Shown: one piece after another, positions 443 through 34,609 of the stretch
How positions within the stretch are numbered: position 1 is the first letter of the stretch
Layout: each line of letters begins with the position of its first letter
Source of the DNA: Paludibacteraceae bacterium
Lineage (GTDB): Bacteria > Bacteroidota > Bacteroidia > Bacteroidales > Paludibacteraceae
Length of the DNA: 45,939 nucleotides
Direction of reading: 5' to 3'
Assembly (NCBI GenBank): GCA_024401435.1
Contig: JAKSLB010000025.1
Coordinates: 1-45,939, forward strand
Notes under the pieces: generated by a model
Seen by the model: only the letters and a program-made list of their open reading frames with translations
What the model was told of the DNA's origin: nothing
Database searches by the model: none
Program-made: the position numbers and the translations under genes

Positions 443-856
443 CTAGTCTAAATATACATCAAGGACTTCTATTGTTTCACCAATCAACTTGTATCCCTTG
501 ATGATGTTAAACACATATTCAATGGTGTCACTCAAAGATTTTGCCTTGTTTTCATTATGAATTGTATAGTCAATTATCATAATGATTGCATCTTTACCTC
601 TACCCATTCTATCCTTATGTTCATTGCTGATTCTAACAATTATTTCCTTATCAGAAATCTTCTTGGCATCAACATAATGGTTGAACTTGGTAAAGTCAAA
701 CTTTGTCCTATCCTTCATATCCATATTGAGTTTTGCACCCAATAGGTTTCTCAACGCAATAATTTCTTGTTCAGTAAATCCAAAACCATTCTTGGATTCA
801 TTCAAAACACATTGAACTTTATTGTATTCACTTTCTGTGAGTAGAACCTTCTTCAT
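443..856 (-). CDS. Tagged protein with putative capsid-targeting N-terminus
   Basis: 137 aa. Residues 1-20 (MKKVLLTESEYNKVQCVLNE) belong to the conserved tag shared by five proteins of this window. The tag ends in L18-N19-E20, which fits a T4-type prohead protease site. The remainder (21-137) is a small mixed alpha/beta domain with no recognised family. Upstream on the minus strand is a TATAAT box and an AAAGGG ribosome site; downstream is a terminator, so the gene looks monocistronic. Inference: a cargo protein packaged in the head and cleaved after E20. The enzymatic or host-directed role is unknown. Confidence 0.65.
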   Translation of the reverse strand: MKKVLLTESEYNKVQCVLNESKNGFGFTEQEIIALRNLLGAKLNMDMKDRTKFDFTKFNHYVDAKKISDKEIIVRISNEHKDRMGRGKDAIIMIIDYTIHNENKAKSLSDTIEYVFNIIKGYKLIGETIEVLDVYLD

Positions 857-886
857 TTTTAAAACCCTTTTGTATTATATATGTCT

Positions 887-1282
887 TTAATCCTCAACAA
901 ACACATCGTTTAGGTCTTTAGGGTCAACTTCCTCCCAAGTGCCATCTTGCTTTGAATACTTTACCTTCTTTATATTGAACGCCTTGATAATCTTCTGGCA
1001 CATTGGGCAAGGTCTACTATTCATAAGATTTCCGTCAAGACCAACCCTACACACATACATAGTTGAATCCTTCAAATGCTTCAAAGGATAATTAGCCCTC
1101 ATAACGGCACAAGCCTCTGCGTGGATATGCTTATATGGATTGAATTTCTTCAAGAAATCATTATCATAGTCAATATTGCAACCCCTAGATATGATTCTAC
1201 CATTCTTTACTATGACACATCCGTGGTGTTGTTGTTGTAAAGACTTTTTTGCTACCTTTATACATTCATTCTTGAAATTCAT
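887..1282 (-). CDS. Cytidine/deoxycytidylate deaminase-like protein
   Basis: 131 aa from the ATG at 1282. An upstream in-frame extension is open, but the ATG at 1282 lies 6 nt after a TATATT -10 box. Zinc-dependent deaminase signatures are visible: H54-A-E56, where the histidine is a zinc ligand and the glutamate the proton shuttle, and P-C92-P-M-C95 with the two cysteine ligands. This is the CDA/dCMP deaminase fold, at about the usual length. In phages such enzymes usually convert dCMP to dUMP for dTTP supply, which would fit the ThyX-like gene at 12838-13497. Substrate (dCMP, cytidine or other) cannot be decided by eye. Confidence 0.75.
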   Translation of the reverse strand: MNFKNECIKVAKKSLQQQHHGCVIVKNGRIISRGCNIDYDNDFLKKFNPYKHIHAEACAVMRANYPLKHLKDSTMYVCRVGLDGNLMNSRPCPMCQKIIKAFNIKKVKYSKQDGTWEEVDPKDLNDVFVED

Positions 1283-1288
1283 ATCACA

Positions 1289-1294
1289 AATATA
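1289..1294 (-). promoter_or_regulatory. -10 box with leaderless geometry (deaminase gene)
   Basis: TATATT on the minus strand, preceded by TGC (extended -10 type, TGn) and ending 6 nt before the ATG at 1282. No ribosome site fits in between, so a leaderless or near-leaderless mRNA is expected. Confidence 0.5.
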
Positions 1295-1295
1295 G

Positions 1296-1325
1296 CAAAA
1301 AACCCACAAAATTGTGGGTTTAGTT
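1296..1325. terminator. Terminator between two minus-strand genes
   Basis: AACCCACAA (1301-1309) pairs with TTGTGGGTT (1312-1320), 9 bp with a 2-nt centre. On the minus strand it is followed by a T-run and ends the tagged gene 1352-1696 before the deaminase promoter. Confidence 0.75.
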
Positions 1326-1351
1326 TTGTTTTTTTTAATTACAATTGTGTT

Positions 1352-1696
1352 TTAATTTTCTATTTCAACATAATTATCACTATAATCTTTGATTATATTC
1401 CACAAATCCTTCACAGTGGGAATATCACCACCGTTAGGAAAAACATACATAGAATCATCATTCCTAACCATTATTTGCGTTGGTTCTTCATCACCATAAT
1501 ATGATGAAATGACATAATGAGTCTTCATCCCACGCATCCTTGGTCTATCCTTTTGTATTTTAACATCAAGAAGTTCGCCATACATTTCAACATCTTCTTC
1601 GGTTGGATTTGCTTCCATTGATGCTTTTGCACTTTGTTCATTTAAAACACTACAAACTTTGCGGTATTCACTTTCAGTCAATAAAACCTTCTTCAT
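1352..1696 (-). CDS. Tagged protein with putative capsid-targeting N-terminus
   Basis: 114 aa. The N-terminal tag MKKVLLTESEYRKVCSVLNE is the clearest copy of the shared motif, with L18-N19-E20 as predicted processing site. The mature part (residues 21-114) is acidic and small, contains the stretch KTHYVISSYYGDEEPTQIMV and has no recognised domain. The ribosome site AAAGGAT lies upstream of the ATG. The gene is divergent from the neck-protein gene across a 34-bp spacer that contains the palindromic box TTATATATAA. A terminator follows at 1296-1325. Confidence 0.65.
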   Translation of the reverse strand: MKKVLLTESEYRKVCSVLNEQSAKASMEANPTEEDVEMYGELLDVKIQKDRPRMRGMKTHYVISSYYGDEEPTQIMVRNDDSMYVFPNGGDIPTVKDLWNIIKDYSDNYVEIEN

Positions 1697-1710
1697 TTTT
1701 TATGAATCCT

Positions 1711-1728
1711 TTTTTCTTTATATATAAG
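1711..1728. promoter_or_regulatory. Probable divergent promoter with palindromic TATATATA box
   Basis: The 34-bp gap between 1696 (-) and 1731 (+) is the only space for both promoters. It holds TTATATATAA, symmetrical and 4-6 nt before the plus ATG. The identical TTATATATAAGATATG precedes the tagged gene at 34609 (-), which supports a shared regulatory box. Confidence 0.45.
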
Positions 1729-1730
1729 AT

Positions 1731-2564: not shown

Positions 2565-2567
2565 TTT

Positions 2568-2573
2568 TATATT
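2568..2573 (+). promoter_or_regulatory. -10 box with leaderless geometry (first homing endonuclease)
   Basis: TATATT followed by 7 nt and then the ATG at 2581. No ribosome site lies between. The same arrangement precedes the uvsW-like gene (38088-38093) and the rad50-like gene (40839-40844). Confidence 0.5.
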
Positions 2574-2580
2574 TGAATAT

Positions 2581-4170: not shown

Positions 4171-4210
4171 TTTAGCTATGTTCAAACAAATCGTAATTGA
4201 ACGGACAAAA

Positions 4211-4240
4211 AGAAAACCGACCATTTAGGTCGGTTTTGTT
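4211..4240. terminator. Bidirectional terminator
   Basis: AAAACCGACC (4213-4222) pairs with GGTCGGTTTT (4228-4237), 10 bp, 5-nt loop, T-rich on both strands. It ends the homing endonuclease gene and the minus-strand transcript from 5303. Confidence 0.8.
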
Positions 4241-4261
4241 GTTATTTTTTATAATTATTAG

Positions 4262-4342: not shown

Positions 4343-4345
4343 TTA

Positions 4346-5303: not shown

Positions 5304-5382
5304 AATATAAACTCCTTAATAGGTTTGTTATATTATGTATAACGGATTATCAAGAAGACATTAATTTCCTTCAAAAAAACCC

Positions 5383-5604: not shown

Positions 5605-5618
5605 CACCAACAAAAATT

Positions 5619-11456: not shown

Positions 11457-12806
11457 ATGAACTATGTACAAAAATACAATGAAAGAATGCTTTTTGTTCA
11501 ACTTTTTGGTCAACTTTGTGAGGATTCTGAAATGAATATGGGCAATTCGTATGTAGATTTTCTAAAGTGTAAATATGACTACGATTTCCGTAGTATAATT
11601 CAAAGATACAATTTTTCACCATCAATTATTAATGATGATATTGATGATGAAAAAATGTGGATGTATATTCAAGATTATCTTACCCCCAAGGATTTAAGAG
11701 ATTGTAAGTTGTTTTGCCCAGAAGAAATATATGAGCAATACAAGAATGACTCTAGTCTATATCTAGCCAACGAAATCACAATTGACAACTATATGCTCTA
11801 TACTGGTCATAGAGTGATTGTCCTTGGTGATGTCAACCTTCAATATAGCCAATTTACTCAATTACCTAACATTGATTTTGTTAGAATCCACGGAAGCCTT
11901 ATTCTAAAAGGAAACTATCTAAAATCATTGAAGTCTAATCTTACATCATTGAGTGAATGTATCATTGATGGTGACTTTGATTGTTCTAACAATGAACTTA
12001 AAAATCTACAAGGATTTCCAAAGTCCGTTGGATATTCTGTATATCTTGAAAACAATAAACTTAAATCACTAAATGGTTGTGTCAAAAAAGTAAGAAACAA
12101 TTTCAACTGCTCAAATAACCTTTTGACAAGCCTAAAGCATTGCCCTAAAGATATTGGTGGTAATCTACATTGTGACCACAATAAACTTACAAGCCTAATG
12201 TATGCACCAGAGAAAATTCATTGTAATCTCTCCGCATCATACAATGAAATCAATACACTCAAGGATTGCCCCAAGCAAATCGTTGGCGTATTCAATTGTA
12301 ATTACAATGAACTTACAAGTCTTGTAGGAGACCTTGAAAGCGTTGGTGATGAATTTTATTGTATGCACAATAAGTTAAAGAGCCTTGAAGGACTTCCATC
12401 TAATGTAACCTCATTACATTGTGATTACAATGAAATTGAGGAATTGGATGAAAATCTACCTTGTTTTTATGACTTTTCCATTTCATACAACAAGTTGAAG
12501 AATTTAAAGAATTTTCCAAGGGTGCTACATTCATTCAACATTACGAAAAACTACATCAACAATTTTGATGGTATGCCAGTTGATGCCGATATCATTTGTG
12601 AAGGTCCTTATGCGGTTCAAAATGTAAAGGTTTCAAACGACTTGATTGACATTGTTGAAAAACGAAGAAATAAAATGAAGACATTGGCAAATTTCAACAA
12701 ACAATTCAACAAGGGCGTTGACTACGAAAAGAATGATGTCTATTTGAAAAAAATCAAACAAAAATTGTACACATTCCAATATAATCAATGGTTGGAAAAC
12801 AATTAA
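11457..12806 (+). CDS. Leucine-rich-repeat protein
   Basis: 449 aa. The N-terminal ~125 residues are non-repetitive. About residues 135-390 form roughly a dozen LRRs of 20-23 residues with the pattern L.C..N.L.SL...P..V (for example NCSNNLLTSLKHCPKDI and HCDHNKLTSLMYAPEKI). The short unit and the N.L.SL...P pattern resemble bacterial LRRs of the YopM/IpaH kind. The C-terminal ~50 residues are basic and helical. LRRs bind proteins, so a host-interaction role or a receptor-binding or anti-defence role is possible. It is transcribed alone from a strong promoter and ends at a terminator. Confidence 0.75.
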   Translation: MNYVQKYNERMLFVQLFGQLCEDSEMNMGNSYVDFLKCKYDYDFRSIIQRYNFSPSIINDDIDDEKMWMYIQDYLTPKDLRDCKLFCPEEIYEQYKNDSSLYLANEITIDNYMLYTGHRVIVLGDVNLQYSQFTQLPNIDFVRIHGSLILKGNYLKSLKSNLTSLSECIIDGDFDCSNNELKNLQGFPKSVGYSVYLENNKLKSLNGCVKKVRNNFNCSNNLLTSLKHCPKDIGGNLHCDHNKLTSLMYAPEKIHCNLSASYNEINTLKDCPKQIVGVFNCNYNELTSLVGDLESVGDEFYCMHNKLKSLEGLPSNVTSLHCDYNEIEELDENLPCFYDFSISYNKLKNLKNFPRVLHSFNITKNYINNFDGMPVDADIICEGPYAVQNVKVSNDLIDIVEKRRNKMKTLANFNKQFNKGVDYEKNDVYLKKIKQKLYTFQYNQWLENN

Positions 12807-13515: not shown

Positions 13516-14481
13516 TTATTTAATTCTTTGCGGTGCGTTTGATTTTGAAAAAAGAGTCAATACAGATATTGATTTTGGTTTGTAGCAAGTCTTTATCTCT
13601 CTAATCATTTGTCTTATGGAGTTTCCTGAATATACTGTATCATCAATTATAATTACATTTTTTCCGTCTAACTTATCAAAATAATCATCATTAGTTTCCA
13701 CTTTTAATGTTTTTGTGATATAACTTCTCATTGTTGCATCATCTATGAAATGCAATTTGAAAGGTTCTTCCATCATATCAACTTCTTCCGTGTAACCATC
13801 AATTGACTTCTTGCAATATACAAGAAAATCTTTATATGCCCTTGAAAGTCTAAAGTCTTTATAATTTTTTCTAAATTCAGAATCATCTTCCAATATATAC
13901 TTATATACTTCACCTATTGTCATCTTTCTAACAACATCATCAAGCAATGTTATATGGTTTAAATTCTTTTTCAATAAGTTCCCCAACAACTTGTTTAGGT
14001 TTCTAGATGAAGGTGTCAATACTGTTGTGTCTTTATCCAAAAAATTCTTACTAATTATAGATACTTTTGTATCCAATCTTGACAAAAACTCATTCTTATT
14101 GTTTTCATCTTGAAATTTCCATCCACTTTCACCCTTCAATGCATATATTAAAGGATTTCCATCAGATTCAGTATCCCTACTTCTCTTAAATACTGAATAT
14201 ATAGTAATTCCCTTTATTGTTTTTTTATCAACAAATATCTCATTACTTTCTGTATCTACATCCTTTCCAGTATATTTGGAATATCTAACCGTCTTCTTTT
14301 GTGGATTATAAATGATACCCTCAATAAGATACATTTTAGGTATTTCTATTCCATATTCCCTATAATTTGTGTATTCCTCATCCATAGAAGCAAAACTTTC
14401 TTTAATGATAGAATCATAATTAGAATATAAAACACTAGAAACTTTTCTAAATTCACTTTCTGTCAATAAAACTTTTTTCAT
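13516..14481 (-). CDS. Tagged phosphoribosyltransferase-like protein
   Basis: 321 aa. Residues 1-16 (MKKVLLTESEFRKVSS) are the shared tag. The LNE is replaced by LYS, but I26-K27-E28 a few residues on gives another (I/L)-x-E site. The C-terminal part holds a PRPP-binding loop (VIIIDDTVYSGNSI, 276-289) as in type I phosphoribosyltransferases. The middle 200 residues are unassigned. The protein ends only ~30 residues after the motif, so the fold may be circularly short or non-catalytic. Inference: a head-packaged protein that could act on nucleotides or in the host at infection onset. It has its own promoter at 14489-14517. Confidence 0.6.
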   Translation of the reverse strand: MKKVLLTESEFRKVSSVLYSNYDSIIKESFASMDEEYTNYREYGIEIPKMYLIEGIIYNPQKKTVRYSKYTGKDVDTESNEIFVDKKTIKGITIYSVFKRSRDTESDGNPLIYALKGESGWKFQDENNKNEFLSRLDTKVSIISKNFLDKDTTVLTPSSRNLNKLLGNLLKKNLNHITLLDDVVRKMTIGEVYKYILEDDSEFRKNYKDFRLSRAYKDFLVYCKKSIDGYTEEVDMMEEPFKLHFIDDATMRSYITKTLKVETNDDYFDKLDGKNVIIIDDTVYSGNSIRQMIREIKTCYKPKSISVLTLFSKSNAPQRIK

Positions 14482-18292: not shown

Positions 18293-21007
18293 CTAGACAA
18301 GTTCTATCACTAGGTTGTTAGAAACATCATTAGAAGGAGTTATGGTTGCACTAAACTGTAACTCCTTTATTTTATCCGTTTCTATTGTACCCTCTATTGT
18401 ATTATAGTAATCAATGTATGTAAATGTGTTATCCGTGAAATCCATTTGATTTTGAGTAAACACTAACATACCATCCGTCTTGTTTCCAACATATCCTTCT
18501 ACACTCTTTGGTGTTTCCTCAATGGTCAAGAAATGTCCGCTAACAGCATATTGTGGTGTCTTGTTTGTGTAAATGGTATCATTAGAATAACGACCCCAAG
18601 CATTAAAGTCAACCCTAGGACTCATTCTATCCTTTGCGTGTTTTCTCAATTCACTATACTTGAAAACATTGTCAGTTGCATTCTTTGTATTTTCATCGCC
18701 TTCTACACTATTGTATATCTCAACGCCATTTATCTTGTTGCTAATTTTAACCTTATAGTCAAAATCGTGTTCCACAAACCTTAACCATCCAAGTGGTATT
18801 GAATAATTGAAATTCAACACACCGCCTTCATATCCATCTTCAAGGATAACACCATCATTGAAACCAAATGGTGGTTGCTTTTGTGCTTCTTGTTCATCAT
18901 TAGTTCTTGCTATTACAAGAATATCGTTGATGTCATCCGTATGACCCAAGAAATAGAAATTGTATACATCCGCTTCTAAAATATTTCCTTGGATGTCATA
19001 ATTGACCGCTCCATTCTTTTTTAGGAACTTTGATTCGTATGGATATTCCGTAAACACATATTCCGTACCATAGGTTGTCTTTTCAACTGTTTGGAACTTT
19101 GCAAATCTCTTTAATTTAACCTTATCTCTAATATAGTTGTCATTCAAAATGACATTATCAAGACTTCCATATCTTTCAATAAATTCGGCTTTGTCTTCCT
19201 CATTGTTCATATAGTACATAATGTTGCCATAGGAATCCTTGACAATTTCTTCTTCTACTTCAACACTCTTGCTATGACAATCCCTAACAACAAGGTCACT
19301 ATATGAAGTGTACAAACCAACACCATTCATACTATACTTTAGATTGATTGCATCAAACAATTTGTATTCGGTGTTTCCATACTTTCCATTGGTTATTTCT
19401 GATATGTTATGGGTAATCATTGATACGGGTGGTTGTATTATGATATTTACAGTTTCATCAAAAGTATCACCTGTTATATGCAATACCTTTCCAAGGCTAT
19501 CCTTTGAGCAAGTTATATTATACACAGCCTTGACATAGAAACCTTGCTTTGTATTATGATAGAACTTGCTATCATATTTAGTGTTCACATCAAAGTAATC
19601 ACTTACTTCATTTACACCCTTATACTTGAATCTATCATACTTGTAATTCAAAAGACCAATTGCATCATTAAATTCATCTTCGGTAAAAGTCATACTATCT
19701 TCATTTACCGCAACATCACCACTTTCGGTTATGATGTCATCACATTCGCCCTCACCTTCATAGGTTTGATTTACTATTAGGTCATCCGCTTGGTCTCTTA
19801 TGGCTTGATATCCGTCTTGATTTTCAATGAAGTCTATTAGACCACCTTCGGTTATAAGGTTGTTCAATAGGATTTCAAGTTGTTGGAAGTTCACAAAGAC
19901 TTGTGTTTCCTCAATCCTATACATATCATCCTTGTAGTCCTCTGAATTTATTATGAACTCCAAGTAGTGTAGGAAGCAATTGCCTAGGACAACATCAAAG
20001 TTATACCCACCATCAATGTTCTTCCAATTGTCTATGTATGCGTATGGTTGATGGGCGTATGAAAGTGTTCCGTCACAAACCCAATGGTAATCCTTTAACC
20101 ATTCCAATTGCTTACATTCTTCTGAAGTATAGTTACCACTAATAACATAGGTCTTATGAACATCAACCAATGTCATACCAGTCTTGTCAAATTCTTCAGC
20201 TTTAAGAGCTACAAATACTGGTCTAACCATAACCTCACAAGTTTCTATTACAATATATTCACAAGTATTTAGGAAAGATAGACAATTCTCTATTGATAGG
20301 TATCTCTTATAGTCCGTAATCTTTTCAATAGTCAAAGTGTTGAATATTGTATTATCTGGATACAATTCTCTATATTCATTAACATCAACTATGCTACACA
20401 ATGCCCAATAATCAATCATAGTCTTTTGACTATAATTGACACCAGTTATCTTCAACTTCAACTTAATCAAGGGATTGTATAGTTTAGTGTTCAAGTAAGC
20501 AAACAATGACTTGTACTTTTCACGATATTCGGCATAAGTTTCGCTATCAACACCATATTCTTCATTATCATAAAAGAATGGAAATTGTATGCCGTTTGAT
20601 GTTATGACATAATCTTTAGAATCAATTTGCCACTTGTCATGTGTATAGAACTTGAAAGAGTGTTTTTTGTTATCATTAGTAACTAGGGTTCTATAGTCAC
20701 CATTCAAAGAAACATTCAATTCAAGGTATCTTGAATCACCGACACCTTCCCAATTACAATATGCTATTTGTTCAAACCAACCAGCCGTAGAGAACCAAGG
20801 GAACACAGTACCAGTCTTGTCCATAATCATTGTGGAGAACTTGTCACATTCAAGCCTAGATTCAATACCCAATCCAAAGTTCACAAAGCAATAACTACCT
20901 TCACCAAGATTATTAATGGTGATATCGTAATTTCCGTCATTTTGGATACATTTTAGGCTATTTGAATCACCCAAGTCGGTTGTATTTGAGACACTAGAAT
21001 TGTACAT
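18293..21007 (-). CDS. Large hypothetical, probably tail/baseplate protein
   Basis: 904 aa, no membrane segments, beta-rich throughout with many Tyr, Asn and Asp residues. It starts MYNSSVSNTTDLGDSNSLKC. Segments such as GEGSYCFVNFGLGIESRLEC and NYDFVVLGNCFLHYLEF-like stretches do not match a family I know. Size, composition and position next to other structural-looking genes suggest a virion protein. The gene ends 3 nt from the convergent uvsX stop, with no terminator between them. Upstream is an AAATATATAATATAT tract next to the ATG. Confidence 0.5.
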   Translation of the reverse strand: MYNSSVSNTTDLGDSNSLKCIQNDGNYDITINNLGEGSYCFVNFGLGIESRLECDKFSTMIMDKTGTVFPWFSTAGWFEQIAYCNWEGVGDSRYLELNVSLNGDYRTLVTNDNKKHSFKFYTHDKWQIDSKDYVITSNGIQFPFFYDNEEYGVDSETYAEYREKYKSLFAYLNTKLYNPLIKLKLKITGVNYSQKTMIDYWALCSIVDVNEYRELYPDNTIFNTLTIEKITDYKRYLSIENCLSFLNTCEYIVIETCEVMVRPVFVALKAEEFDKTGMTLVDVHKTYVISGNYTSEECKQLEWLKDYHWVCDGTLSYAHQPYAYIDNWKNIDGGYNFDVVLGNCFLHYLEFIINSEDYKDDMYRIEETQVFVNFQQLEILLNNLITEGGLIDFIENQDGYQAIRDQADDLIVNQTYEGEGECDDIITESGDVAVNEDSMTFTEDEFNDAIGLLNYKYDRFKYKGVNEVSDYFDVNTKYDSKFYHNTKQGFYVKAVYNITCSKDSLGKVLHITGDTFDETVNIIIQPPVSMITHNISEITNGKYGNTEYKLFDAINLKYSMNGVGLYTSYSDLVVRDCHSKSVEVEEEIVKDSYGNIMYYMNNEEDKAEFIERYGSLDNVILNDNYIRDKVKLKRFAKFQTVEKTTYGTEYVFTEYPYESKFLKKNGAVNYDIQGNILEADVYNFYFLGHTDDINDILVIARTNDEQEAQKQPPFGFNDGVILEDGYEGGVLNFNYSIPLGWLRFVEHDFDYKVKISNKINGVEIYNSVEGDENTKNATDNVFKYSELRKHAKDRMSPRVDFNAWGRYSNDTIYTNKTPQYAVSGHFLTIEETPKSVEGYVGNKTDGMLVFTQNQMDFTDNTFTYIDYYNTIEGTIETDKIKELQFSATITPSNDVSNNLVIELV

Positions 21008-21220: not shown

Positions 21221-21874
21221 ATGAACGATTTACAAGCACTAAAAGAACAATTTAAGAAAGACTTGAGCACTATCGTAGAAGAAAGTGTTTTCAATGTCAA
21301 GTATGAAGATAACTTCAAGTTCAAGTTCTTGAACGAAGAAGATGACCCATTTGCCGATGATGGCGATGATATGGGCGGTGATGATGATGGTGGTTCTAGT
21401 GATGGTGACGGTGATACCGAAATACCTGAAGGCGAAGAACAACCAGTAGAGAGAGAAAAGGATGATGACTTTGAAAAGGGCATCAAGAACCAAGATAGTG
21501 TCGTCCTAGACAAGGTTCCTGCTGGAAAGACCATATATAGTGCCGACAAGCTACTAGCAAACATAGATGCAATGCTTTCCGCAACCACCGATAGTGAAGA
21601 ACTAAACATTCTCAACGCACTAAAGTCTTGTGCCGAGTTCGTATTTAGCGGACAAAAACTTGTATATGAGGATTTAGAACCAATCCAAGATACCAAGAAG
21701 TTCAAGAACATACTGAAGGATGTCTTGAAGGGTGTAGATAGCAAGTCAAAGAACTACTTCAAGTTCAAGATTTCAAAGACTATGCAAGACAAGGCAAACG
21801 AAGAAAAGTTGAAAAAGGCTGAAGCTGAAAACAACATAGATAAGATAAGAGATAACTTATTGGAACTTGTATAA
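21221..21874 (+). CDS. Acidic protein, possibly head core/scaffold-like
   Basis: 217 aa. Residues about 1-35 are helical and basic-acidic; at 36-40 KFLNEEDD holds an LNE motif. Then follows a very acidic Gly/Asp/Glu linker (about 42-72, DDGDDMGGDDDGG-like). The remaining part is helical with a charged coiled C-terminus. Similar acidic, coiled proteins serve as prohead core components, but no family match is seen. It begins a three-gene run to 22927 with 3-nt gaps. A TATATATTT box lies 13 nt before the ATG. Confidence 0.45.
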   Translation: MNDLQALKEQFKKDLSTIVEESVFNVKYEDNFKFKFLNEEDDPFADDGDDMGGDDDGGSSDGDGDTEIPEGEEQPVEREKDDDFEKGIKNQDSVVLDKVPAGKTIYSADKLLANIDAMLSATTDSEELNILNALKSCAEFVFSGQKLVYEDLEPIQDTKKFKNILKDVLKGVDSKSKNYFKFKISKTMQDKANEEKLKKAEAENNIDKIRDNLLELV

Positions 21875-23040: not shown

Positions 23041-23124
23041 CTGGCACTATGATATATAAGAGTTTAAGTGGTTGTTACGCCACTGTCCTATCTTGAATGT
23101 GCCAGATTCTAGATAGGATTTTTT
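23041..23124 (+). promoter_or_regulatory. Structured leader before tnpB
   Basis: Three inverted repeats lie in the tnpB leader: CTGGCAC/GTGCCAG (23041-23047, 23099-23105), AGTGG/CCACT (23067-23071, 23080-23084) and CCTATCT/AGATAGG (23087-23093, 23111-23117), the last followed by TTTTTT. The first and last pairs cannot nest, so they form a pseudoknot or alternative folds. The last one looks like a terminator placed five bases before the tnpB start. It could be an attenuator or the left-end hairpins of an IS605-like core. Confidence 0.5.
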
Positions 23125-23128
23125 GTTT

Positions 23129-24268
23129 ATGAAACGGGCGTATAAGATAAGACTATATCCTACAATAAAGCAACAAGTCTTCTTTAAGAAGACATTTGGC
23201 TGTGTTCGTTTCGTGCAAAACAAATATCTTGAACTTAAGCAAGACATATACAAGGGAACTGGAAAACAATTCTATCCAAAACTTGCATCATTCAAAGAAG
23301 AATGGGAATGGCTTCACGAAGCCGACAGTCAAGGGTTATGCAATGCTATCCGTGATATTGAAGGTGCTTATACATCATTTTTCAATGGTAAAACAAAATT
23401 CCCTAAATTTAAACGGAAGAATGACAAGCAGTCTTATCGTAATGGTATGATGAGGAAAACCATAGCTGAATTAATTTCTGATAAGCGAATATTCATCCCA
23501 AAGGCTGGCTGGGTAAAATTTAGACAAGATTATGATTTCGCTGACATACACATTAATAAAGTTTGTAATATAACCATTGAACTATCCAAGACAGGTAAAT
23601 ACTTTTGTTCCATTCTATGTGATGTTATTGATTATGAACCATTACCTAAAAACAATTATTCCATTGGCATTGACCTTGGTATCAAGGATTTCTTGATAGA
23701 TAGTAACGGCTTCGTAACAGAAAACCCTAAATATTTCCGTCATAGTGAGTGTAAACTTGCAAAAGAACAACGGAAGTTATCACATTGTGTAAGAGGGTCA
23801 CAAAACTATAAGAAACAAAAACATCGTGTTGCGTTGGTACACGAAAAAATAACAAACCAACGAAAAGATTTTCAGCACAAAATCGCAAAGAGATTGATTG
23901 TAGAGAACCAATACATCTTCTCTGAAGATTTGAAAGTCAAAAATATGCTAAAGAATCACAAATTGGCTAAATCCATAGCCGATGCTTCGTGGACTTCATT
24001 CACCAATATGCTTGAATATAAAGCAAAGTGGTACGGAAGGACATATTTGAAAGTAAGTTCATTCTATCCGTCTAGCAAGCTATGTAATTGTTGTGGATAT
24101 AAAAACACTACTCTAACTCTAGGTGATAGAGAATGGACTTGCCCTCAATGTGGTTCTTGGCTTGATAGAGATAAGAATGCTGCGGTTAATATCCTCACCG
24201 AAGGCACGCACATTCTAATGACTACCGTAGGGCTTACGGAAGGTGGCATTTCCACCAAAGACTGTTGA
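23129..24268 (+). CDS. tnpB: TnpB RNA-guided nuclease (IS200/IS605-type)
   Basis: 379 aa from the ATG at 23129. RuvC-I aspartate D182 (SIGIDLGIKD), RuvC-II glutamate E266 (IFSEDLKV), zinc ribbon C319/C322 and C338/C341, and RuvC-III D346 (LDRDKNAAVNI) are all present, so the nuclease should be active. Family knowledge: TnpB uses an RNA from the element's right end to cut matching DNA and helps the element persist. No tnpA accompanies it. The N-terminus (RAYKIRLYPT) is the classic start of the family. Codon use resembles the phage, so the insertion need not be recent. Confidence 0.93.
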   Translation: MKRAYKIRLYPTIKQQVFFKKTFGCVRFVQNKYLELKQDIYKGTGKQFYPKLASFKEEWEWLHEADSQGLCNAIRDIEGAYTSFFNGKTKFPKFKRKNDKQSYRNGMMRKTIAELISDKRIFIPKAGWVKFRQDYDFADIHINKVCNITIELSKTGKYFCSILCDVIDYEPLPKNNYSIGIDLGIKDFLIDSNGFVTENPKYFRHSECKLAKEQRKLSHCVRGSQNYKKQKHRVALVHEKITNQRKDFQHKIAKRLIVENQYIFSEDLKVKNMLKNHKLAKSIADASWTSFTNMLEYKAKWYGRTYLKVSSFYPSSKLCNCCGYKNTTLTLGDREWTCPQCGSWLDRDKNAAVNILTEGTHILMTTVGLTEGGISTKDC

Positions 24269-24786: not shown

Positions 24787-25065
24787 TTATTCCTCATCCC
24801 AAACTATGTCGGTAATGAAGCAAGTATCACCTTCAAACTTAACTGTTGATGTACTTATTAGGAAACCATATTCATCAGAAAGGGCATCAATCACTTCATC
24901 TTCATTGTTTAGATGACAACCATCCCACCTAATGTTCTTTGGAAGTTCACCGAAATCAAGGTCACCCATATCGGTAAATTTCTTATTGGTCTTCTTCAAA
25001 GATGCTTCATTTAAGATTTCACATACTTTGCGATATTCACTTTCGGTTAATAGTACCTTCTTCAT
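24787..25065 (-). CDS. Tagged protein with putative capsid-targeting N-terminus
   Basis: 92 aa. Tag MKKVLLTESEYRKVCEILNE at residues 1-20, ending in L18-N19-E20. The mature part is ~72 residues, basic at first (ASLKKTNKK) and acidic later (TDIVWDEE). It contains NIRWDG, a short motif also present (NIKWDG) in the neighbouring 396-aa protein. AAAGGAG precedes the ATG. It follows the gene 25081-26271 by 15 nt on the same strand and ends at a terminator. Confidence 0.65.
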   Translation of the reverse strand: MKKVLLTESEYRKVCEILNEASLKKTNKKFTDMGDLDFGELPKNIRWDGCHLNNEDEVIDALSDEYGFLISTSTVKFEGDTCFITDIVWDEE

Positions 25066-26334: not shown

Positions 26335-26658
26335 TTATACGCCTTCAATCTTTTCATTATCTTCAAGAACGGAGATAATTTCAACTTCAGGAATAACATA
26401 GAACTTCTTCTTGACACCATCAACTAGGATATGGTCAATAGTAACCGCAGTACCAAAGTTGAATAGGATTCTATCACCTGGCTTTACGATGGGTGGAACA
26501 TATTCACCAGTGTTGGGGTTGAGTCTACCTTGACCTACACCAATTACCTTGCCTTCAACAATACCGACCTTGACACCAATCTGTGGAATGTAAATACCGC
26601 CTGCGGTAGTATCTGGATTCTCACATTCAAGGAGAATCTTGCTTTCAAACATCTTCAT
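26335..26658 (-). CDS. groES: GroES-like co-chaperonin
   Basis: 107 aa. Single cpn10 domain: mobile-loop region NPDTTAGGIYIPQ (about 14-26), then GIVEGKVIGVGQGRLNPNTG, the dome and KPGDRILFNFGTAVTID, and a C-terminal strand KFYVIPEVEIISVL. Co-chaperonins cap GroEL. In T4, gp31 replaces GroES so that the large major capsid protein can fold. This protein resembles bacterial GroES more than gp31, and no groEL is seen. AAAGGA lies upstream of the ATG. It forms its own unit ended by the terminator at 26282-26312. Confidence 0.9.
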   Translation of the reverse strand: MKMFESKILLECENPDTTAGGIYIPQIGVKVGIVEGKVIGVGQGRLNPNTGEYVPPIVKPGDRILFNFGTAVTIDHILVDGVKKKFYVIPEVEIISVLEDNEKIEGV

Positions 26659-28826: not shown

Positions 28827-31800
28827 TTAACCTTCGGTGAAGTATAGACCATTGTTTCTAGAAACTGTTGTAGTAACTTGAATATGTTCAACAACTTCCG
28901 CAGGAACTATATCAAGATTTACATACAATAGATGTGGGTCATCCCTATCGGTAACAACCTTTACATCCTTCCACAAGATACCTTGACCAGTTTGGATTCT
29001 GGAAAGGAATGCGTCCACAGTGGTTCTAATGGATTCACGGAGTTCTTGTGTGTTGTGCTTGTAGAGGTATGGAACTAGAATGACTTCAAGTCTATTTTCA
29101 ATGTAGTTGACAAGTCTACGGACATTGATTCTATTCAATGCACTATCCTTCTTCAACATAGTCTTTTGATGCCATACGATTTGACCATGACCAGTACAAT
29201 TTCTTGCACCATTGGTGTTTGCATCGTACAATGCACCGAGTTCCTTATCACTCAACTTTACGATAGAACCATTGGAATATCCAATGCCACCATTATCCAT
29301 ACCAGCAGGTGCGTACCAAGGATATGCGTAGATATCGCAACGGCACATAGCACAAGCACCAGCCACGGACAATGGAATGAAGCACCAAGTACCCGTATAG
29401 GAATCGTAATACTTGTCATAGCCACAATATGCTGCAACATAAGAACCATTGGCGAAGGAGAAGGACTTTGCTTCAGAAAGCATTTGTCTACCGCTCTTTG
29501 CTGCCTTTGAGGTTACTTGGATTGCTGCAATGTCTAGACCTCTTGTGGATGCGATTTCGGCAATCTTGTTTTGGTGAGCACGATACTTCTGCTTGCTTTG
29601 GAAGGTATCAATTGGCTCAACATTGAACAATATGTCAAATGCGGCATACTGTCTTTCCTTATAGAGGTTGAGAGCTGCGGTCTTTTCCTTGATGTTGTTC
29701 AACTTGGAGTTCTTACCGCCTTGTAGAGAATAGATGGAATAGGTTTGAATAGGAACATCATAACCACCAACGCTATTCTTTGCAGCGGATACGGAATTCT
29801 TTGACACATAGATGAATCTAGAATGACCATTGATTACATTTGGTGCGTAAAGGGAATTGCCATCTCCGTCCTTTGCATCTGGGTCATTGGAAACCAAGAA
29901 CCATTCATCAGGTTCCTTGACCAATGCATCAAGACCGCTTCCCCAATAGTCCTCACCCTTGTCCTTTGGTCTATTGTACACATTGATACGATAAACCTTC
30001 TTCCAAGTCAAGTTTTCCATATTGCTTCTATAATCATTAGATGCAAGTTCTACCTTGTCCTCATCATCAAAGGTGTACTTCCAGTTGAATGCGTTTGGAC
30101 TATCCAATGCTGGAATCATAGCTGCCTCTGGGGAGATGATGGATATGCCAATTGTATTAGCATATTCACCAGGACCGAGTGCTGCTATGACCAATTGGTT
30201 TCCTTGGTTGGATACATATTCTTCAATATCACCATTACCTGGTTCATCTTCGGTATCGGTGGTGGGTGTGAAACCATCAACATACTTGGAATATGGGTCA
30301 CCGAACACTTCAATAGAACTCATAGCTTCCATTGAAGTAACATTTGCCTTCTTTACTCCTTCTGGCAACTTGTTGTTCTTGTCAATCTGCCAAGGTGCTT
30401 GAACCGCATTTGGTGTTTCCGCAACATAGTGGGATACGATTTCAAGTTTTGGCTTGCCTGCCTTCTCTATTTGATAGAGGGAGAAGATATATTTACTTTC
30501 CTTCAATGAATCCAATGTACCATCAGACATTACTACGGCATTCTTCTTGATGATTCGGTAGTCAATCACATCACTATTGATGATGTCAGATACATTCTCA
30601 GGCTTGGGGGCATTTATCACCAAGTTGCTAACATTGGGGTCGTTTGATGCATTGACTATTTCGCCTTCATCATTTTCAACTTCACAATTGTATGCGTTGA
30701 TGTATAGCAAGAGTTCAAAGTTCTTGTTTGTAACTTCTTCGGCTACTAGACCAAGTTCGTTAGCAAATGCTGCTGCAACCTTCGCATCTACGGAATCCAT
30801 AGGATATTTGCGATAGCAAGTTGACAACACATTCATTGACAAGGATTCACCTTCTGGTACGAAGGAAATAGCACTTACAGTACCACTTGTTGCGGTAACG
30901 GATTCTTCCTTTACATAGTAATCCTTGGTTTCCATATCTTGCCAGTCGGTAATATGGAAATGACGGATGTCATAGGTCTCATAGTATGAAGATACATTGA
31001 TGCTATCATCTAGACCAGCCAATCTATCCTCTTCCTCTATGGTCACAAACTTCATATTTTCTGAATTGACCAATGCGGTGAGTGCAACGCCACTATAAAT
31101 GGAACCTGGAACTTCTACGAGTTCATCAAACATACCAGAATTGATATAATAGTTTGCTACTTGCTGCTTTTCATTTTCAGCCATCAAGTCTTGAATACGC
31201 AAGGTAACATTGTCACCACCATAAGCGGTGTTGGCACTATTAATCTTGATATAGGACATATTGGAAGGTGCATTCTCATTCTGTCTAATCACTGGAATGA
31301 TGCTATCTTGATATTCAGACTTCACGGAAATCTTGCAACGAGATTGTGTGATTGGTGAATAGAAGTCATACATCTTCGCACTTTCATTGGTGTTGGATGA
31401 GTCAGTTCTATAAATGACCGAGAAGGTGCTTTCACTATTGTCAAACACATCATTGAATGCACCGATAGAACCCCTACCACTAAACACAAAGCTATTTTCA
31501 TAGGTGTATTCAGTAACCGTTTCACTTTCCAAATCTGGACACTTTGAATTCATAATGTCCGCAATTTCATATACACCCTTGGTGGGGTCTTTATAATATT
31601 CTTCAAGATTTACAAACACTTCATTGGTGGTATCATCACCATCGGTTGAACTCAATTTCCAATATGGAGTAATCTTTTCCAATTCCTCCAATTCAAAAGG
31701 TTGCATTCCGTTAATCTTGACTGTTTGTGTTTGTTTAGTTACCTCCCAACCAGCATTCTCATAACCACTAATCTGGCTTGCTGCAATTTGGTTGGTTGGA

Positions 31801-32204
31801 TATATCAACTTCAAGACATCTTCCGCATCCTTGTTGACATATCTATAACTTTCAAGACCACTAACACTATTCATGTCAGTAACTGTAATGTCTATGCTAT
31901 TATATGGAACTTGCAAGAAGGCATATTGCTCATCACCTTGCGTTGCTCTTACAGCTAACAAGGATTGTGAACCAGCTTGGAAAAATTGACTTGCTGCGAA
32001 CTTGCCATACTGATTTGGATTGTCAGGTTCACCAAAGTTCTCATAAAATTCATTTAAGTTGGTGCTCAAAATTCTCTGGTTTGGATAACCACGATTTGAA
32101 TTCAATACTATAGCACCTCTACCCAATGGGGTAGGACCGCTATTATTGACAACCGAGTTGTCAATTTCACGGAAAGAAAGACCTGGATTACTCCACTTTG
32201 CCAT
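28827..32204 (-). CDS. Tail sheath protein (T4 gp18 family)
   Basis: 1125 aa from the ATG at 32204, with AAAGGAAAA upstream; the longer frame to 32285 is only an open extension. The N-terminal segment (WSNPGLSFREIDNSVV, LGRGAIVLNSNRGYPNQ) and the C-terminal ~250 residues (AKSFSFANGSYVAAYCGY, DIYAYPWYAPAGMDNGG, RLVNYIENRLEVILVPYLYKHN) are the conserved sheath ends. They join the tube-wrapping lattice that contracts on infection. T4 gp18 has 659 residues, so about 450 extra residues lie in the middle and likely form surface domains. Codons are G/C-richer than average here, as for an abundant virion protein. Confidence 0.92.
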   Translation of the reverse strand: MAKWSNPGLSFREIDNSVVNNSGPTPLGRGAIVLNSNRGYPNQRILSTNLNEFYENFGEPDNPNQYGKFAASQFFQAGSQSLLAVRATQGDEQYAFLQVPYNSIDITVTDMNSVSGLESYRYVNKDAEDVLKLIYPTNQIAASQISGYENAGWEVTKQTQTVKINGMQPFELEELEKITPYWKLSSTDGDDTTNEVFVNLEEYYKDPTKGVYEIADIMNSKCPDLESETVTEYTYENSFVFSGRGSIGAFNDVFDNSESTFSVIYRTDSSNTNESAKMYDFYSPITQSRCKISVKSEYQDSIIPVIRQNENAPSNMSYIKINSANTAYGGDNVTLRIQDLMAENEKQQVANYYINSGMFDELVEVPGSIYSGVALTALVNSENMKFVTIEEEDRLAGLDDSINVSSYYETYDIRHFHITDWQDMETKDYYVKEESVTATSGTVSAISFVPEGESLSMNVLSTCYRKYPMDSVDAKVAAAFANELGLVAEEVTNKNFELLLYINAYNCEVENDEGEIVNASNDPNVSNLVINAPKPENVSDIINSDVIDYRIIKKNAVVMSDGTLDSLKESKYIFSLYQIEKAGKPKLEIVSHYVAETPNAVQAPWQIDKNNKLPEGVKKANVTSMEAMSSIEVFGDPYSKYVDGFTPTTDTEDEPGNGDIEEYVSNQGNQLVIAALGPGEYANTIGISIISPEAAMIPALDSPNAFNWKYTFDDEDKVELASNDYRSNMENLTWKKVYRINVYNRPKDKGEDYWGSGLDALVKEPDEWFLVSNDPDAKDGDGNSLYAPNVINGHSRFIYVSKNSVSAAKNSVGGYDVPIQTYSIYSLQGGKNSKLNNIKEKTAALNLYKERQYAAFDILFNVEPIDTFQSKQKYRAHQNKIAEIASTRGLDIAAIQVTSKAAKSGRQMLSEAKSFSFANGSYVAAYCGYDKYYDSYTGTWCFIPLSVAGACAMCRCDIYAYPWYAPAGMDNGGIGYSNGSIVKLSDKELGALYDANTNGARNCTGHGQIVWHQKTMLKKDSALNRINVRRLVNYIENRLEVILVPYLYKHNTQELRESIRTTVDAFLSRIQTGQGILWKDVKVVTDRDDPHLLYVNLDIVPAEVVEHIQVTTTVSRNNGLYFTEG

Positions 32205-32217
32205 ATATATGTTTTCC

Positions 32218-32246
32218 TTTATAAATAATTTAACACTTGCAATCAA
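32218..32246 (-). promoter_or_regulatory. Promoter of the tail sheath gene
   Basis: TTGATT (32241-32246), 17 bp, TATAAA (32218-32223) on the minus strand, then AAGGAAA and the ATG at 32204. Confidence 0.5.
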
Positions 32247-32310
32247 GCAAAATACGAACGAAAGGAATTGTGGACAAGTCCACATATTATTTATATATTT
32301 ATGGGTTGTT

Positions 32311-33999
32311 ATGAATTGTTTAATTTGTCAAAAAGAATTTGATAGTATAAGACACTTGAGCCTACATCTTAAAAGTCATAAGATGGGTTCAAGAGAATAT
32401 TATGACAAATTCTTGAAGAAAGAATTTGAAGGCATTTGTACTTGTGGCAATGAAACAAAATTCTTGGACTTGACAAATGGCTATCAAAGATTTTGTTGTT
32501 CAAGATGTGCAAACACAAATGAAGAAACGAAGGAGAAGAACAAGAACGCACACGACTACAAGAGCATACTTGAAAAATCCAAGAAAACAAAACTTAAAAG
32601 ATATGGCAACGAAACATATACCAATACCGAGAAAATGAAGAACACATCAAATGAAAGATATGGTGGCATAGGTTTTGGTGTAAAGGAAATTAAAGAAAAG
32701 GCACTTGAGCCTTATGGTGTTGACAACTTCTTCCAATTGGAATCTGTAAAGGAGAAGTCAAAGAAAACTAAATTGGAAAGATATGGAAATGAAACATATC
32801 AAAACCGAGAACAGATAGAAAAGACAAACATAGCAAAATATGGTTACAATACACCAAGCAAGAATTCCGTAGTCAAGGAAAGGCTTTCAACAAGTTTAAA
32901 GAATGCCTATGAACTTGACAAGGAAACAATCTTGGAAAAAAGGAATGAAACATATAACAAGAAATATGGAATAGGTTTTAGAGAATACACCAAGATAAGA
33001 CATCAAGAGGAATACATACCTAGATGGAACAAGTTGTTTAGCGAAAAGTTTGACACCACAAGACTCACCACACATACATTCCGTTGCAACAAGTGTGATG
33101 ATGTGTATATAGTTGAGCATCCAAGCAATGGTGCTTGCTATTGTAGGAAATGCCATAAGTTTGTCCGTAGCCAAGAACAAGAGAACATAGCCAATGAAAT
33201 CCGTAAGTTCTATAATGGCGAAATAATAGAGAATGATAGGACTATATTAAATGGAAAGGAATTAGACATATACATCCCAGAATTCAAGTTGGCTATTGAA
33301 TATAACGGACTATATTGGCATAAGGAGTATGAGCCTTCATATCACTTGGAAAATACAAACAAGTGCGAAGGATTAGGGATACGATTGCTACAAGTGTGGG
33401 ATGTTGTCTATAAAGAGCATAAGGAAATCATCTTGGATAAGATTAAGTCTTGTATGGGTATGAACAATAGGATTTTCGCAAGAAAGTGTTCTATTAAAGA
33501 AATATCCGTTGAGGTTTATAAGGAATTTTGCCTAAAGTACCATATACAAGGATTTGTCAACTCAAAGTATAGATATGGTCTTTTCAATGACAATGAATTG
33601 GTAGCCATAGGTTCTTTTGGAAAATCAAGATTTGAAAATGAAATGGAATTGTTAAGGTATTGCTCAAAGAGCGGAATATCCGTCATTGGTGGAATGAAGA
33701 AGATTGTTGCTCATTTCAAGAAGACAAATCACATTGATGAGGTCATTTCCTATGCCGATAGGAGATATACGGCAAGTTTCAACAATGTGTATGGAACTCC
33801 AATTGGAAAGACTAGGATTGGCTATTACTACTTTGACGGACATAGGCTATACAATAGGCTCAACTTTCAAAAGCACAAATTGAAGGATAACCCGTTGACA
33901 AAGGATTTCTATGATGATGCATTGACAGAAAGCGAGATATGTATGTTATCAAGTCTTTACAAGATTTACGACCTTGGTCAATTGAAATTCAAGCTATAA
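32311..33999 (+). CDS. Free-standing homing endonuclease, paralogue of 2581-4170
   Basis: 562 aa from the ATG at 32311, where the C2H2 finger starts (C3, C6, H19, H23). The track-like longer frame runs into the sheath promoter. The order matches the first copy: zinc finger, cysteine cluster, five to six modular repeats (KKTKLERYGNETY type, about 85-210), CxxC pairs, nuclease core (ELDIYIPEFKLAIEYNGLYWH) and a shared C-terminal domain. It has one or two more modular repeats than the first copy. It lies divergent from the tail sheath, so its target may be the sheath region of related phages. A TATATT box (32294-32299) precedes it. Confidence 0.75.
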   Translation: MNCLICQKEFDSIRHLSLHLKSHKMGSREYYDKFLKKEFEGICTCGNETKFLDLTNGYQRFCCSRCANTNEETKEKNKNAHDYKSILEKSKKTKLKRYGNETYTNTEKMKNTSNERYGGIGFGVKEIKEKALEPYGVDNFFQLESVKEKSKKTKLERYGNETYQNREQIEKTNIAKYGYNTPSKNSVVKERLSTSLKNAYELDKETILEKRNETYNKKYGIGFREYTKIRHQEEYIPRWNKLFSEKFDTTRLTTHTFRCNKCDDVYIVEHPSNGACYCRKCHKFVRSQEQENIANEIRKFYNGEIIENDRTILNGKELDIYIPEFKLAIEYNGLYWHKEYEPSYHLENTNKCEGLGIRLLQVWDVVYKEHKEIILDKIKSCMGMNNRIFARKCSIKEISVEVYKEFCLKYHIQGFVNSKYRYGLFNDNELVAIGSFGKSRFENEMELLRYCSKSGISVIGGMKKIVAHFKKTNHIDEVISYADRRYTASFNNVYGTPIGKTRIGYYYFDGHRLYNRLNFQKHKLKDNPLTKDFYDDALTESEICMLSSLYKIYDLGQLKFKL

Positions 34000-34001
34000 T
34001 G

Positions 34002-34032
34002 AAAAACCCTTCCTTTAATAGGAAGGGTTTAA
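34002..34032. terminator. Bidirectional terminator
   Basis: AAACCCTTCC (34004-34013) pairs with GGAAGGGTTT (34021-34030), 7-nt loop. The same stem recurs at 34624-34650. Confidence 0.85.
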
Positions 34033-34036
34033 AAAA

Positions 34037-34609
34037 TTAGTCAATTAGTTTCAATCCATAATTTACTATTGCGTGTAAAATTACACCTGCCATTTGATTA
34101 ATGAATTGTTCCTTGGAGTAACAAGTAATAGACCTAAAGTCCTTTAGATATATGTTGTACTTTTCGCCATTCTTGATTACCACAAGTTCCTTTCCGTCAT
34201 CATATTCACCAACTACAACGCTCTTTTCATCATTTAGAGCATCATATACTTCATTGGCATAGTCCATATACTTTTCTTTTGCCTTATCTAGAACATCATA
34301 GTCATAGTTAACTGAAATGTATGTATTACCGCCAGAAAGGATTTCCATACCGCTTTCATCCCAACGGACATCTTCAAACTTCTTTGCCATATTTTCAATA
34401 GGCTTGATGGGAATATTAGCATCCTTGATAGTTATGTGTAATGAATATGATAGTCCACCTCTACCTTCTACAACACTAACTTGTCTACTATTGTAGCCCA
34501 TCTTCTTCAATTCACTACGGATATGAGATTTCAAGTCATCAATATATCCTTCATTTAAGACTTGACATACCTTCTTGAATTCATTTTCGGTCAATAATAC
34601 AGTTTTCAT
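34037..34609 (-). CDS. Tagged protein with putative capsid-targeting N-terminus
   Basis: 190 aa. Tag variant MKTVLLTENEFKKVCQVLNE at residues 1-20, with L18-N19-E20. The mature part starts GYIDDLKSHIRSELKKMGY, then shows a strand-rich domain with GGLSYSLHITIKD and two or three acidic helices. No catalytic motif is recognised. The gene is isolated between two copies of the same terminator stem and has the upstream box TTATATATAAGAT, identical to that before the neck gene. It looks like an inserted single-gene cassette. Confidence 0.65.
   Translation of the reverse strand: MKTVLLTENEFKKVCQVLNEGYIDDLKSHIRSELKKMGYNSRQVSVVEGRGGLSYSLHITIKDANIPIKPIENMAKKFEDVRWDESGMEILSGGNTYISVNYDYDVLDKAKEKYMDYANEVYDALNDEKSVVVGEYDDGKELVVIKNGEKYNIYLKDFRSITCYSKEQFINQMAGVILHAIVNYGLKLID

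Follow-up and report, generated by a model that had tools for sequence, protein, structure and literature searches.

Why would phage genes that otherwise have nothing in common begin with the same 20 residues? The question is raised by contig JAKSLB010000025.1 of the Paludibacteraceae bacterium assembly GCA_024401435.1, and the whole 45,939 nucleotides of this contig are the window analysed here (C123 below; the parent assembly comprises 3.83 Mb in 204 contigs, among them C172, C13, C35 and C120). A sequence-only reading of the window had proposed that five of its proteins share an N-terminal tag that works like the removable capsid-targeting signal of phage T4 internal proteins. We found the tag on 21 genes of the assembly, which also encodes a T4-type prohead protease and capsid protein, and very probably, as judged from sequence, it is a lineage-specific capsid-targeting propeptide of a T4-related jumbo phage. 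Phage proteins that are injected first are hard to find, having no common sequence and coming mostly from uncultured phages; with a recognisable label and its defined cut site, about 20 anonymous genes of an uncultured jumbo phage become a short, testable list with a predicted mature N-terminus for expression.

A shared N-terminal tag that ends at residue 20

All five open reading frames (ORFs) are present on the minus strand and share the tag. As the sequence-only reading had it, four of the five tags end in LNE at residues 18-20, while the protein 13516-14481 has LYS at 18-20 and IKE at 26-28. The tags and the cargos that follow them in the window are:

797..856, minus strand: tag 1, residues 1-20, ends LNE (protein 443-856, starts MKKVLLTESEYNKVQCVLNE)
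443..796, minus strand: cargo of tag 1, 117 residues, no family assigned in Pfam/PHROG searches
1637..1696, minus strand: tag 2, residues 1-20, ends LNE (protein 1352-1696, starts MKKVLLTESEYRKVCSVLNE)
1352..1636, minus strand: cargo of tag 2, 94 residues, no family assigned in Pfam/PHROG searches
14398..14481, minus strand: tag 3, with LYS at 18-20 and IKE at 26-28 as candidate cleavage end (protein 13516-14481, starts MKKVLLTESEFRKVSSVLYS)
13516..14397, minus strand: cargo of tag 3, C-terminally phosphoribosyltransferase-like (PF00156, residues 267-315, E 3.7e-7)
25006..25065, minus strand: tag 4, residues 1-20, ends LNE (protein 24787-25065, starts MKKVLLTESEYRKVCEILNE)
24787..25005, minus strand: cargo of tag 4, 72 residues, no family assigned in Pfam/PHROG searches
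34550..34609, minus strand: tag 5, residues 1-20, ends LNE (protein 34037-34609, starts MKTVLLTENEFKKVCQVLNE)
34037..34549, minus strand: cargo of tag 5, 170 residues, no family assigned by Pfam search and single-sequence fold model

Searching the assembly with the tag gave 22 matches, confined to five of the 204 contigs (C172, C13, C35, C120 and C123), which correspond to 21 genes and one decayed copy; the proposed recurrence across the genome is thereby borne out. The decayed tag (C120:33859-33909) runs for about 17 residues to a stop (19 codons); on the opposite strand, an intact tagged gene starts some 400 bases away. When the N-termini of 573 greedily called genes were clustered blind, the tag emerged as the largest N-terminal family (18 genes). 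Chance likeness is ruled out, since no cluster grew beyond two members when the same 1,334 candidate N-termini were shuffled 100 times.

The Met of the tag is a possible start codon in 18 of the 21 genes, whereas one gene starts one residue earlier and two hold the tag inside the ORF; these last three were left out of the analyses of columns, codons and promoters, which therefore cover 18 genes. Per-column entropy is low across positions 1-20 except at the variable columns 9, 12, 15, 16 and 19, and is zero or nearly so at M1, K2, L5, L6, T7, E8, E10, V14, L18 and E20. From position 21 onward it is about 3 bits or higher, i.e. conservation stops at residue 20. Beyond that point the proteins are unrelated, just as had been noticed in the window: a comparison at E 0.01 gave no match between any cargo and a second tagged gene. 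The tag ends in (L/I)xE in 20 of the 21 tagged genes (LNE 12, LGE 4, LDE 2, LCE 1, LRE 1), a motif found at residues 18-20 in only 11 of 506 untagged genes. The sole LYS-ending tag has its IKE eight residues further on.

Mean pairwise identity at codon positions 1, 2 and 3 is 0.72, 0.79 and 0.52 within the tag and 0.31, 0.33 and 0.29 after it, and the DNA upstream of the tagged genes is 0.31-0.39 identical. This comparison of tag and flanks argues that selection acts on the peptide and not on the DNA. It also bears on a reading in which a recombination or expression cassette (ribosome site and first codons) was duplicated at the 5' ends of these genes, with the peptide itself playing no role. 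A cassette would fit with an upstream motif that is common to about half of the tagged genes; that motif, however, also precedes untagged structural genes (see below), the third codon positions are scrambled while the residues are kept, and the upstream DNA is unrelated. On the codon-position and upstream identities we reject a shared 5'-end cassette, which seems scarcely credible.

A gp21-type protease and a capsid protein with the same predicted cut site

The T4 prohead protease gp21 cleaves after L/I-X-E, as set out in the available parts of PMC9026906, and the sequence-only reading expected a protease of this type in the genome. There is one: the search gave a single over-threshold Peptidase_S77 match, at C172:11953-12375 (E 8.9e-29). 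In the PDB this protein matches a single entry, 5jbl (E 2.1e-19), entitled 'prohead core protein protease', the sequence of which is nearly identical with that of T4 gp21, and by eye the ELNHP and SSRG stretches of gp21 are kept. The C172 protease begins MNKLLNE...ILKE and so resembles T4 gp21 in having a motif-like site close to its own N-terminus (described for gp21 in the same source, PMC9026906).

A gp23-like capsid protein is encoded at C13:20006-21289 (PF07068, E 7.8e-71). It reads NFMLNE|DFGIG, with LNE at residues 47-49. Aligned to T4 gp23, its residue 60 stands opposite residue 9 of the 456-residue mature chain, which places its mature start within about two residues of E49. The homologous site, compared by eye, reads FLTE|A in T4, FLTE|T in the annotated phage C48C1, LFE|T in G063, FLKE|A in G064, FLQE|A in G065, ALNE|D in G061 and G062, LLTE|D in G068 and G069, and TLNE|D in G079, and ALNE|DF stands at this site in all 22 relatives found in IMG/VR. 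The commonest tag end is thus the phage's own capsid-protein site, both being LNE. The idea that LNE would recur at the sites of the capsid protein and the protease themselves holds for both, at the position of the T4 cut in the former and in the opening MNKLLNE of the latter. A Gp23 match on C35 scored 17.9 bits, under the cut-off, and was taken as spurious.

A second S77-like protein lies at C35:78162-78605 (L025; E 1.9e-7 against the C48C1 protease). By eye, the histidine of the ELNHP stretch and the serine stretch SSRG are lost, and the protein is apparently a dead protease paralogue; a diverged protease paralogue has likewise been reported for phage SPN3US (in the accessible text of PMC5694885).

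Related phages: another tag with the same end

The window tag was absent from the examined loci of IMG/VR phages with a 54-57% identical capsid protein. The records of these relatives chiefly repeat another N-terminus, M-x-L-x-E-A-K-x-I-L-x-x-N-G-Y/F, with hxE (h, hydrophobic residue) coming a few residues later at most. Clusters with this N-terminus hold 14 of 170 genes in G061, 12 of 70 in G062, 27 of 692 in G068, 12 of 664 in G069, 13 of 194 in G073 (140,000 of its 141,742 bases analysed) and 8 of 89 in G079, counts that include chance-looking members, one G068 gene twice and the G073 protease. A strict pattern leaves 61 tags in the six records, and [LIVMF]xE follows the G-Y in 56 of the 61, compared with 15 of 61 in a control window. 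A DNA pattern for the relatives' tag picked out 60 stretches in IMG/VR. Among 12 larger contigs with this tag, four of which were analysed further, S77 was found in six and Gp23 over the cut-off in five, and both contigs of more than 400 kb have both; those lacking S77 or Gp23 may be fragments.

One cargo occurs with different tags in two phages: the proteins C172:53146-53469 (MKTVLLTENEYNKVKHILNE) and G079:8620-9108 (MQLNEAIQILEANGFGAE) match at E 1.3e-41, with 59 of 80 mature residues identical and the tags agreeing at best in 2 of 18. At E 0.01, four of the 21 cargos have any match in the 11 phage records tested, two of these a weak one. The C13:30070 cargo matches an untagged G069 homologue (E 2.9e-7). 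Cargos of the relatives' tag are likewise tagged in one phage and untagged in another (e.g. G061:94583 and G073:108935, E 9e-117), and G062:6890-7840 has a homologue at C172:61329-62246 with the N-terminus ...YCRSLNE (E 1.7e-63).

Two proteins join a tag to the predicted mature start of the capsid protein. G068:66419-67006 reads MTLEEAVEVLKKNGYKVLDE|DFGIGVGAPLGADQGIPHGGD and G069:302835-303263 reads MTVEEALEILKENGVTLDE|DFGIGVGSPCGLDQGIPHGGD; in each the LDE of the tag is joined straight to D, and both match capsid proteins from the predicted first mature residue. Read from these sequences, capsid propeptide and tag are exchanged exactly at the hxE bond. Since the junctions fall at this bond, tag end and cleavage site would be one thing, which is the strongest argument that sequence offers here.

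The junctions also bear on the reading that the tag directs proteins to some other destination, e.g. a replication compartment, the tail or the membrane, and stays attached. In favour of this, two tags lie inside ORFs, and cleavage is a prediction. It leaves unexplained, however, that conservation stops at an hxE equal to the capsid protein's own site, that the relatives' unrelated tags also end in hxE, and that tag and capsid arm are fused exactly at the predicted bond in two phages. We regard another destination as very unlikely.

Internal hxE|DFGxGV modules occur in G062:11364-11918, in G079:8620-9108 and in C172:39427-40158 of the phage studied here. Proteins with hxE followed by this capsid arm (DFGxGV), including the G068 and G069 junction proteins, have a lysine/arginine-rich stretch or tail and are candidate shell-lining, DNA-binding head proteins. 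By eye, G068:89048-89701 and G068:91668-92222, both tagged and near the protease, contain a second tag-like repeat. Together with the internal tags of C172:10706 and C172:53862, these repeats suggest that tags may be used in tandem.

T4 as positive control and comparison with known systems

Blind clustering of the 270 T4 genes (names as in the T4 record) returned MKTYQEFIAE on ipII and ipIII and MKTFKEFIKE on gene 61.1, along with homing-endonuclease-like families, and a 10-residue window additionally recovered ipI (MKTFKEFTST...). The ipI product has 95 residues in the T4 record and mature IPI has 76 (PMC3012670, as far as its available text goes), from which the ipI propeptide has 19 residues and ends in ITE. 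Gene 61.1 (18966-19130) encodes a 54-residue hypothetical protein that starts like an internal-protein targeting sequence, and we predict from this start that it is a head protein. Neither C48C1 nor G063, a fragment of 43 kb, yielded a tag in the same clustering. With a 20-residue window, a T4-like MSTFKEFQALVMEE-type tag appeared on three genes of G064 and seven of G065. Both records encode an S77 protease and gp23 (G066 was left out of the records with both), and their tag is like the window tag in being a repeated N-terminus in such phages, while resembling that of T4 in sequence, which the window tag does not.

According to the excerpts of PMC9026906, T4 internal-protein targeting sequences have 10-19 residues. 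The window tag is like those of IPI, IPII, IPIII and Alt in that it is N-terminal and short, stands on otherwise unrelated proteins and ends in (L/I)-x-E, and in that the phage has a gp21-type protease and a gp23-type capsid protein. It differs in having 20 residues and sitting on 21 genes, compared with three or four T4 genes by the same method, in that its cargos are mostly not basic, and in that two copies are internal. By eye the window tag does not resemble MKTYQEFIAE and is not a sequence homologue of the T4 sequence, and none of the cargos matches any T4 gene at E 0.01, i.e. they do not belong to the IPI, IPII or IPIII families. In all likelihood the tag is a T4-type capsid-targeting sequence in function, as its features indicate, and not by sequence descent.

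In SPN3US and phiKZ, propeptides of head and ejection proteins are cut by a gp21-related protease after a short E-ending motif, and two paralogues share an identical 15-residue N-terminus (available portions of PMC5694885 and PMC10052503). There the motif is A-x-E or S/A-x-E, as opposed to (L/I)-x-E here (PMC5694885, PMC9026906), SPN3US propeptides mostly exceed 100 residues, as opposed to 20 (PMC10052503), and the portions of PMC5694885 and PMC10052503 at hand describe no tag on about 20 unrelated genes. New with respect to the systems described are how many cargos there are, the sequence of the tag, the unrelated tag of the relatives, the natural exchange of tags on one cargo, and the junctions that link the end of the tag with the predicted cut site of the capsid protein. 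No report of the window tag was seen among the matches listed for the open-access PMC literature, as far as their text was available.

Late-promoter-like motif and gene position

We scored a late-promoter-like motif, [ACT]ATATA[AT]A, within 60 or 100 nucleotides upstream of genes. In the window it precedes three tagged genes:

876..883, minus strand: late-promoter-like motif upstream of tagged gene 443-856, position -27
1717..1726, minus strand: late-promoter-like motif upstream of tagged gene 1352-1696, overlapping the motif of the divergent head-tail-adaptor-like gene 1731-2564
34614..34621, minus strand: late-promoter-like motif upstream of tagged gene 34037-34609, position -12

Within 60 nucleotides the motif, which was chosen after viewing the tagged genes, stands before 10 of the 18 tagged genes and 10 of the 14 late genes, before none of the 8 early genes and before 67 of 425 others, the last group including a few tagged genes whose called start precedes the tag (Fisher p 2e-4 for tagged and 9e-6 for late genes, each against others). 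Within 100 nucleotides the counts are 11 of 18, 10 of 14, 1 of 8 and 78 of 425. Because the motif was first noticed upstream of tagged genes, late versus early is the cleaner test. The late set left out C172:82016 (a second terL-like piece), C172:84397 (a weak hub match) and C35:78162 (the protease paralogue), none of which has the motif within 60 nucleotides; the late count would be 10 of 17 if they were included.

The protease of this phage has a tagged gene on either side, one at C172:11423-11836 and one at C172:13080-14012, with a 90-residue minus-strand ORF lying between the protease and the second. In G073 and G079, too, tagged genes lie on both sides; G068 has one tagged gene directly upstream of the protease and G069 has none adjacent. 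T4 has the core genes 67, 68 and 22 at this place, and the arrangement raises a variant reading in which the tag targets proteins to the prohead and is cut, but many tagged proteins are parts of the assembly core. Like T4 gp67, gp68 and gp22, these would be broken down or driven out ahead of DNA packaging and would not be injected. Some features would suit such core proteins: the tagged product of C172:13134-14012 matches helical-repeat Pfam families only below threshold, two tagged G068 genes near the protease hold a second internal tag-like repeat, as seen by eye, and a non-basic pI (isoelectric point) suits a core no worse than it suits DNA-bound cargo. The diversity of the cargos, which share neither Pfam or PHROG families nor matches to one another, speaks against it, however, a phosphoribosyltransferase-like domain is not what a scaffold needs, and the majority of the tagged genes, like the T4 ip genes, lie at a distance from the protease. 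We consider a role confined to the core rather unlikely.

Cargos

Pfam and PHROGs were searched with all 21 cargos, and further searches were made with ten each. No Pfam or PHROG family was matched by more than one cargo, and the yield was small; a RusA-like match (E 1.7e-4) and a PHROG of unknown function (E 1.9e-11) were not used. In the window, one cargo of five has an assigned domain (13516-14481, PF00156). A fold model of the 34037-34609 protein (P0005), computed with no homologues, reached a pLDDT (predicted local distance difference test) of 72.5, i.e. moderate confidence, and had no PDB match at E 0.001; the model of P0003 (pLDDT 36.7) was not used. IMG/VR searches gave no homologues of P0003, P0005 or the C172:53146 protein, the last being a weak negative as its search missed the known G079 homologue. 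That the tagged cargos would be early-acting effectors, as the sequence-only reading had it, is something we only infer. Of the T4 internal proteins, IPI blocks a restriction enzyme and IPIII is required on a different host strain (extracts of PMC9026906 and PMC9391042).

A model for tag-directed head loading

The T4-like capsid-targeting reading that started this work has gained support from the sequence checks, the T4 control, the hxE end of the relatives' tag, the swapped cargo, the capsid junctions and the late-promoter-like motif. The sequence of events would be as follows. Tagged proteins would be made late, alongside the structural proteins; the N-terminal tag would dock them on the prohead core, and the shell would close round them. 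At residue 20 the S77 (gp21-type) protease would cut after (L/I)-x-E, and the maturation step in which it does so would be the one that also cuts the capsid protein after LNE-49. The tag would then be lost and the freed cargo retained in the head and, most likely, injected with the DNA. We infer docking, cleavage, packaging, retention and injection by analogy with T4.

Several points weigh against the capsid-targeting propeptide. The case is built from sequence. Two tags lie well inside their ORFs (C172:10706 and C172:53862), which would call for a second cut or another start, the C35:56929 tag begins one residue late, and one tag lacks E20. T4 internal proteins are described as basic; the cargos here mostly are not (pI above 8 in 2 of 21). 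The promoter motif was picked after inspection of the tagged genes, and one of eight early genes has it within 100 nucleotides. The swap is a single pair, no other of the 21 cargos matching a tagged homologue, and in the MAFFT alignment the likeness of this pair also covers about seven residues at the end of the tag of G079. The junction proteins of G068 and G069 are homologous to each other (E 1.4e-42) and therefore count as one event or family, not as independent cases. G061 and G062, which are fragments, show no protease, whereas C48C1 has a protease yet no tag by blind clustering, from which it follows that not every protease-bearing phage has such a tag by this method.

The narrow distribution of the tag belongs here as well. 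Two IMG/VR pattern scans gave no match to it, using a method that works, given that it recovered the relatives' tag. Among 358 genomes of its own family, the tag was found in one, its own assembly; among 61 relatives it was found in this assembly and in two genomes at E 0.7-0.85, which were dropped, the loci having no LTE-type pattern in a quick look. One match in a GTDB contig, inside a protein of a Ruminococcus bin and not N-terminal, was taken as chance, and a tag search of that bin's genome found nothing. A tblastn search of the 20-mer against phage records was empty, although a query of this length makes the test a weak one.

With these points set against the evidence above, we lean slightly towards a broader scheme, in which large T4-related phages use interchangeable, lineage-specific propeptide labels (three kinds besides that of T4) that are read by one conserved core-and-protease machine, and in which cargos gain, lose and swap labels. 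A second class of cargo would mimic the N-terminal arm of the mature capsid protein after hxE and carry a lysine-rich tail or stretch, as if lining the inner shell and binding DNA. Under this scheme, a large part of the proteins that an uncultured jumbo phage injects, about 20 here, could be listed from its sequence. The tag also offers new head-loading peptides for protein packaging, a use to which the T4 targeting sequence has already been put (PMC3012670, in the text available).

The phage behind the five contigs

The tagged contigs measure 137 kb (C172), 90 kb (C13), 79 kb (C35), 49 kb (C120) and 46 kb (C123), 401 kb in total, with a G+C content of 34.2-34.8%. By matches to annotated C48C1 proteins, C172 carries terminase, protease, tail tube, DNA polymerase, helicase and clamp loader; C13 capsid protein, scaffold and portal; C123 sheath, UvsX, UvsW and SbcC; and C120 SSB and baseplate-type genes. 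The scaffold gene, which is gp22-like, lies at C13:21306-22322. These hallmarks are mostly single-copy over the contigs (terminase-like and hub-like matches occur twice), and C35 is tied to the phage by one tag and by gene families alone. Because of the spread of mostly single-copy hallmarks, the common base composition, the one tag and the shared gene families, the five contigs probably belong to a single jumbo phage, related to T4 and 401 kb or more in size. Its relatives G068 and G069 measure 416 and 411 kb, and Jug phages, at 360-402 kb (PMC12363816, in part), are of similar size. DNA of window positions 1-25000 had no match in phage records.

Large-terminase matches occur at two separate places, C172:9173-10051 and C172:82016-83047. 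The former ends in a CLDGDTEV stretch, which we take to be an intein-like signature, and the terminase gene may for this reason be split.

Two further features of the window belong to the phage's structural and folding genes:

28827..32285, minus strand: tail sheath protein, marking a contractile-tailed phage (phrog_23, E 3.6e-35)
26335..26658, minus strand: Cpn10-type co-chaperonin (PF00166, E 1.5e-11)

The co-chaperonin is a possible analogue of T4 gp31, which is required for the folding of T4 gp23 (PMC3012670, same portion). Window positions 21221-21874 encode an acidic protein with KFLNE|EDDPFADDG that resembles a protein in L052 (LNEADDDPFADEG) and has no Pfam match; its sequence makes it a possible core protein with its own cut site. 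The gene 11457-12806 belongs, with more than 20 genes on C13, C120 and C172, to a large repeat-rich family that looks leucine-rich-like by eye and is untagged in these more than 20 copies and tagged twice in G062. Finally, the gene 23123-24268 and eight further genes across all five contigs have similar starts in two subtypes, and these nine may be IS200/IS605 TnpB.

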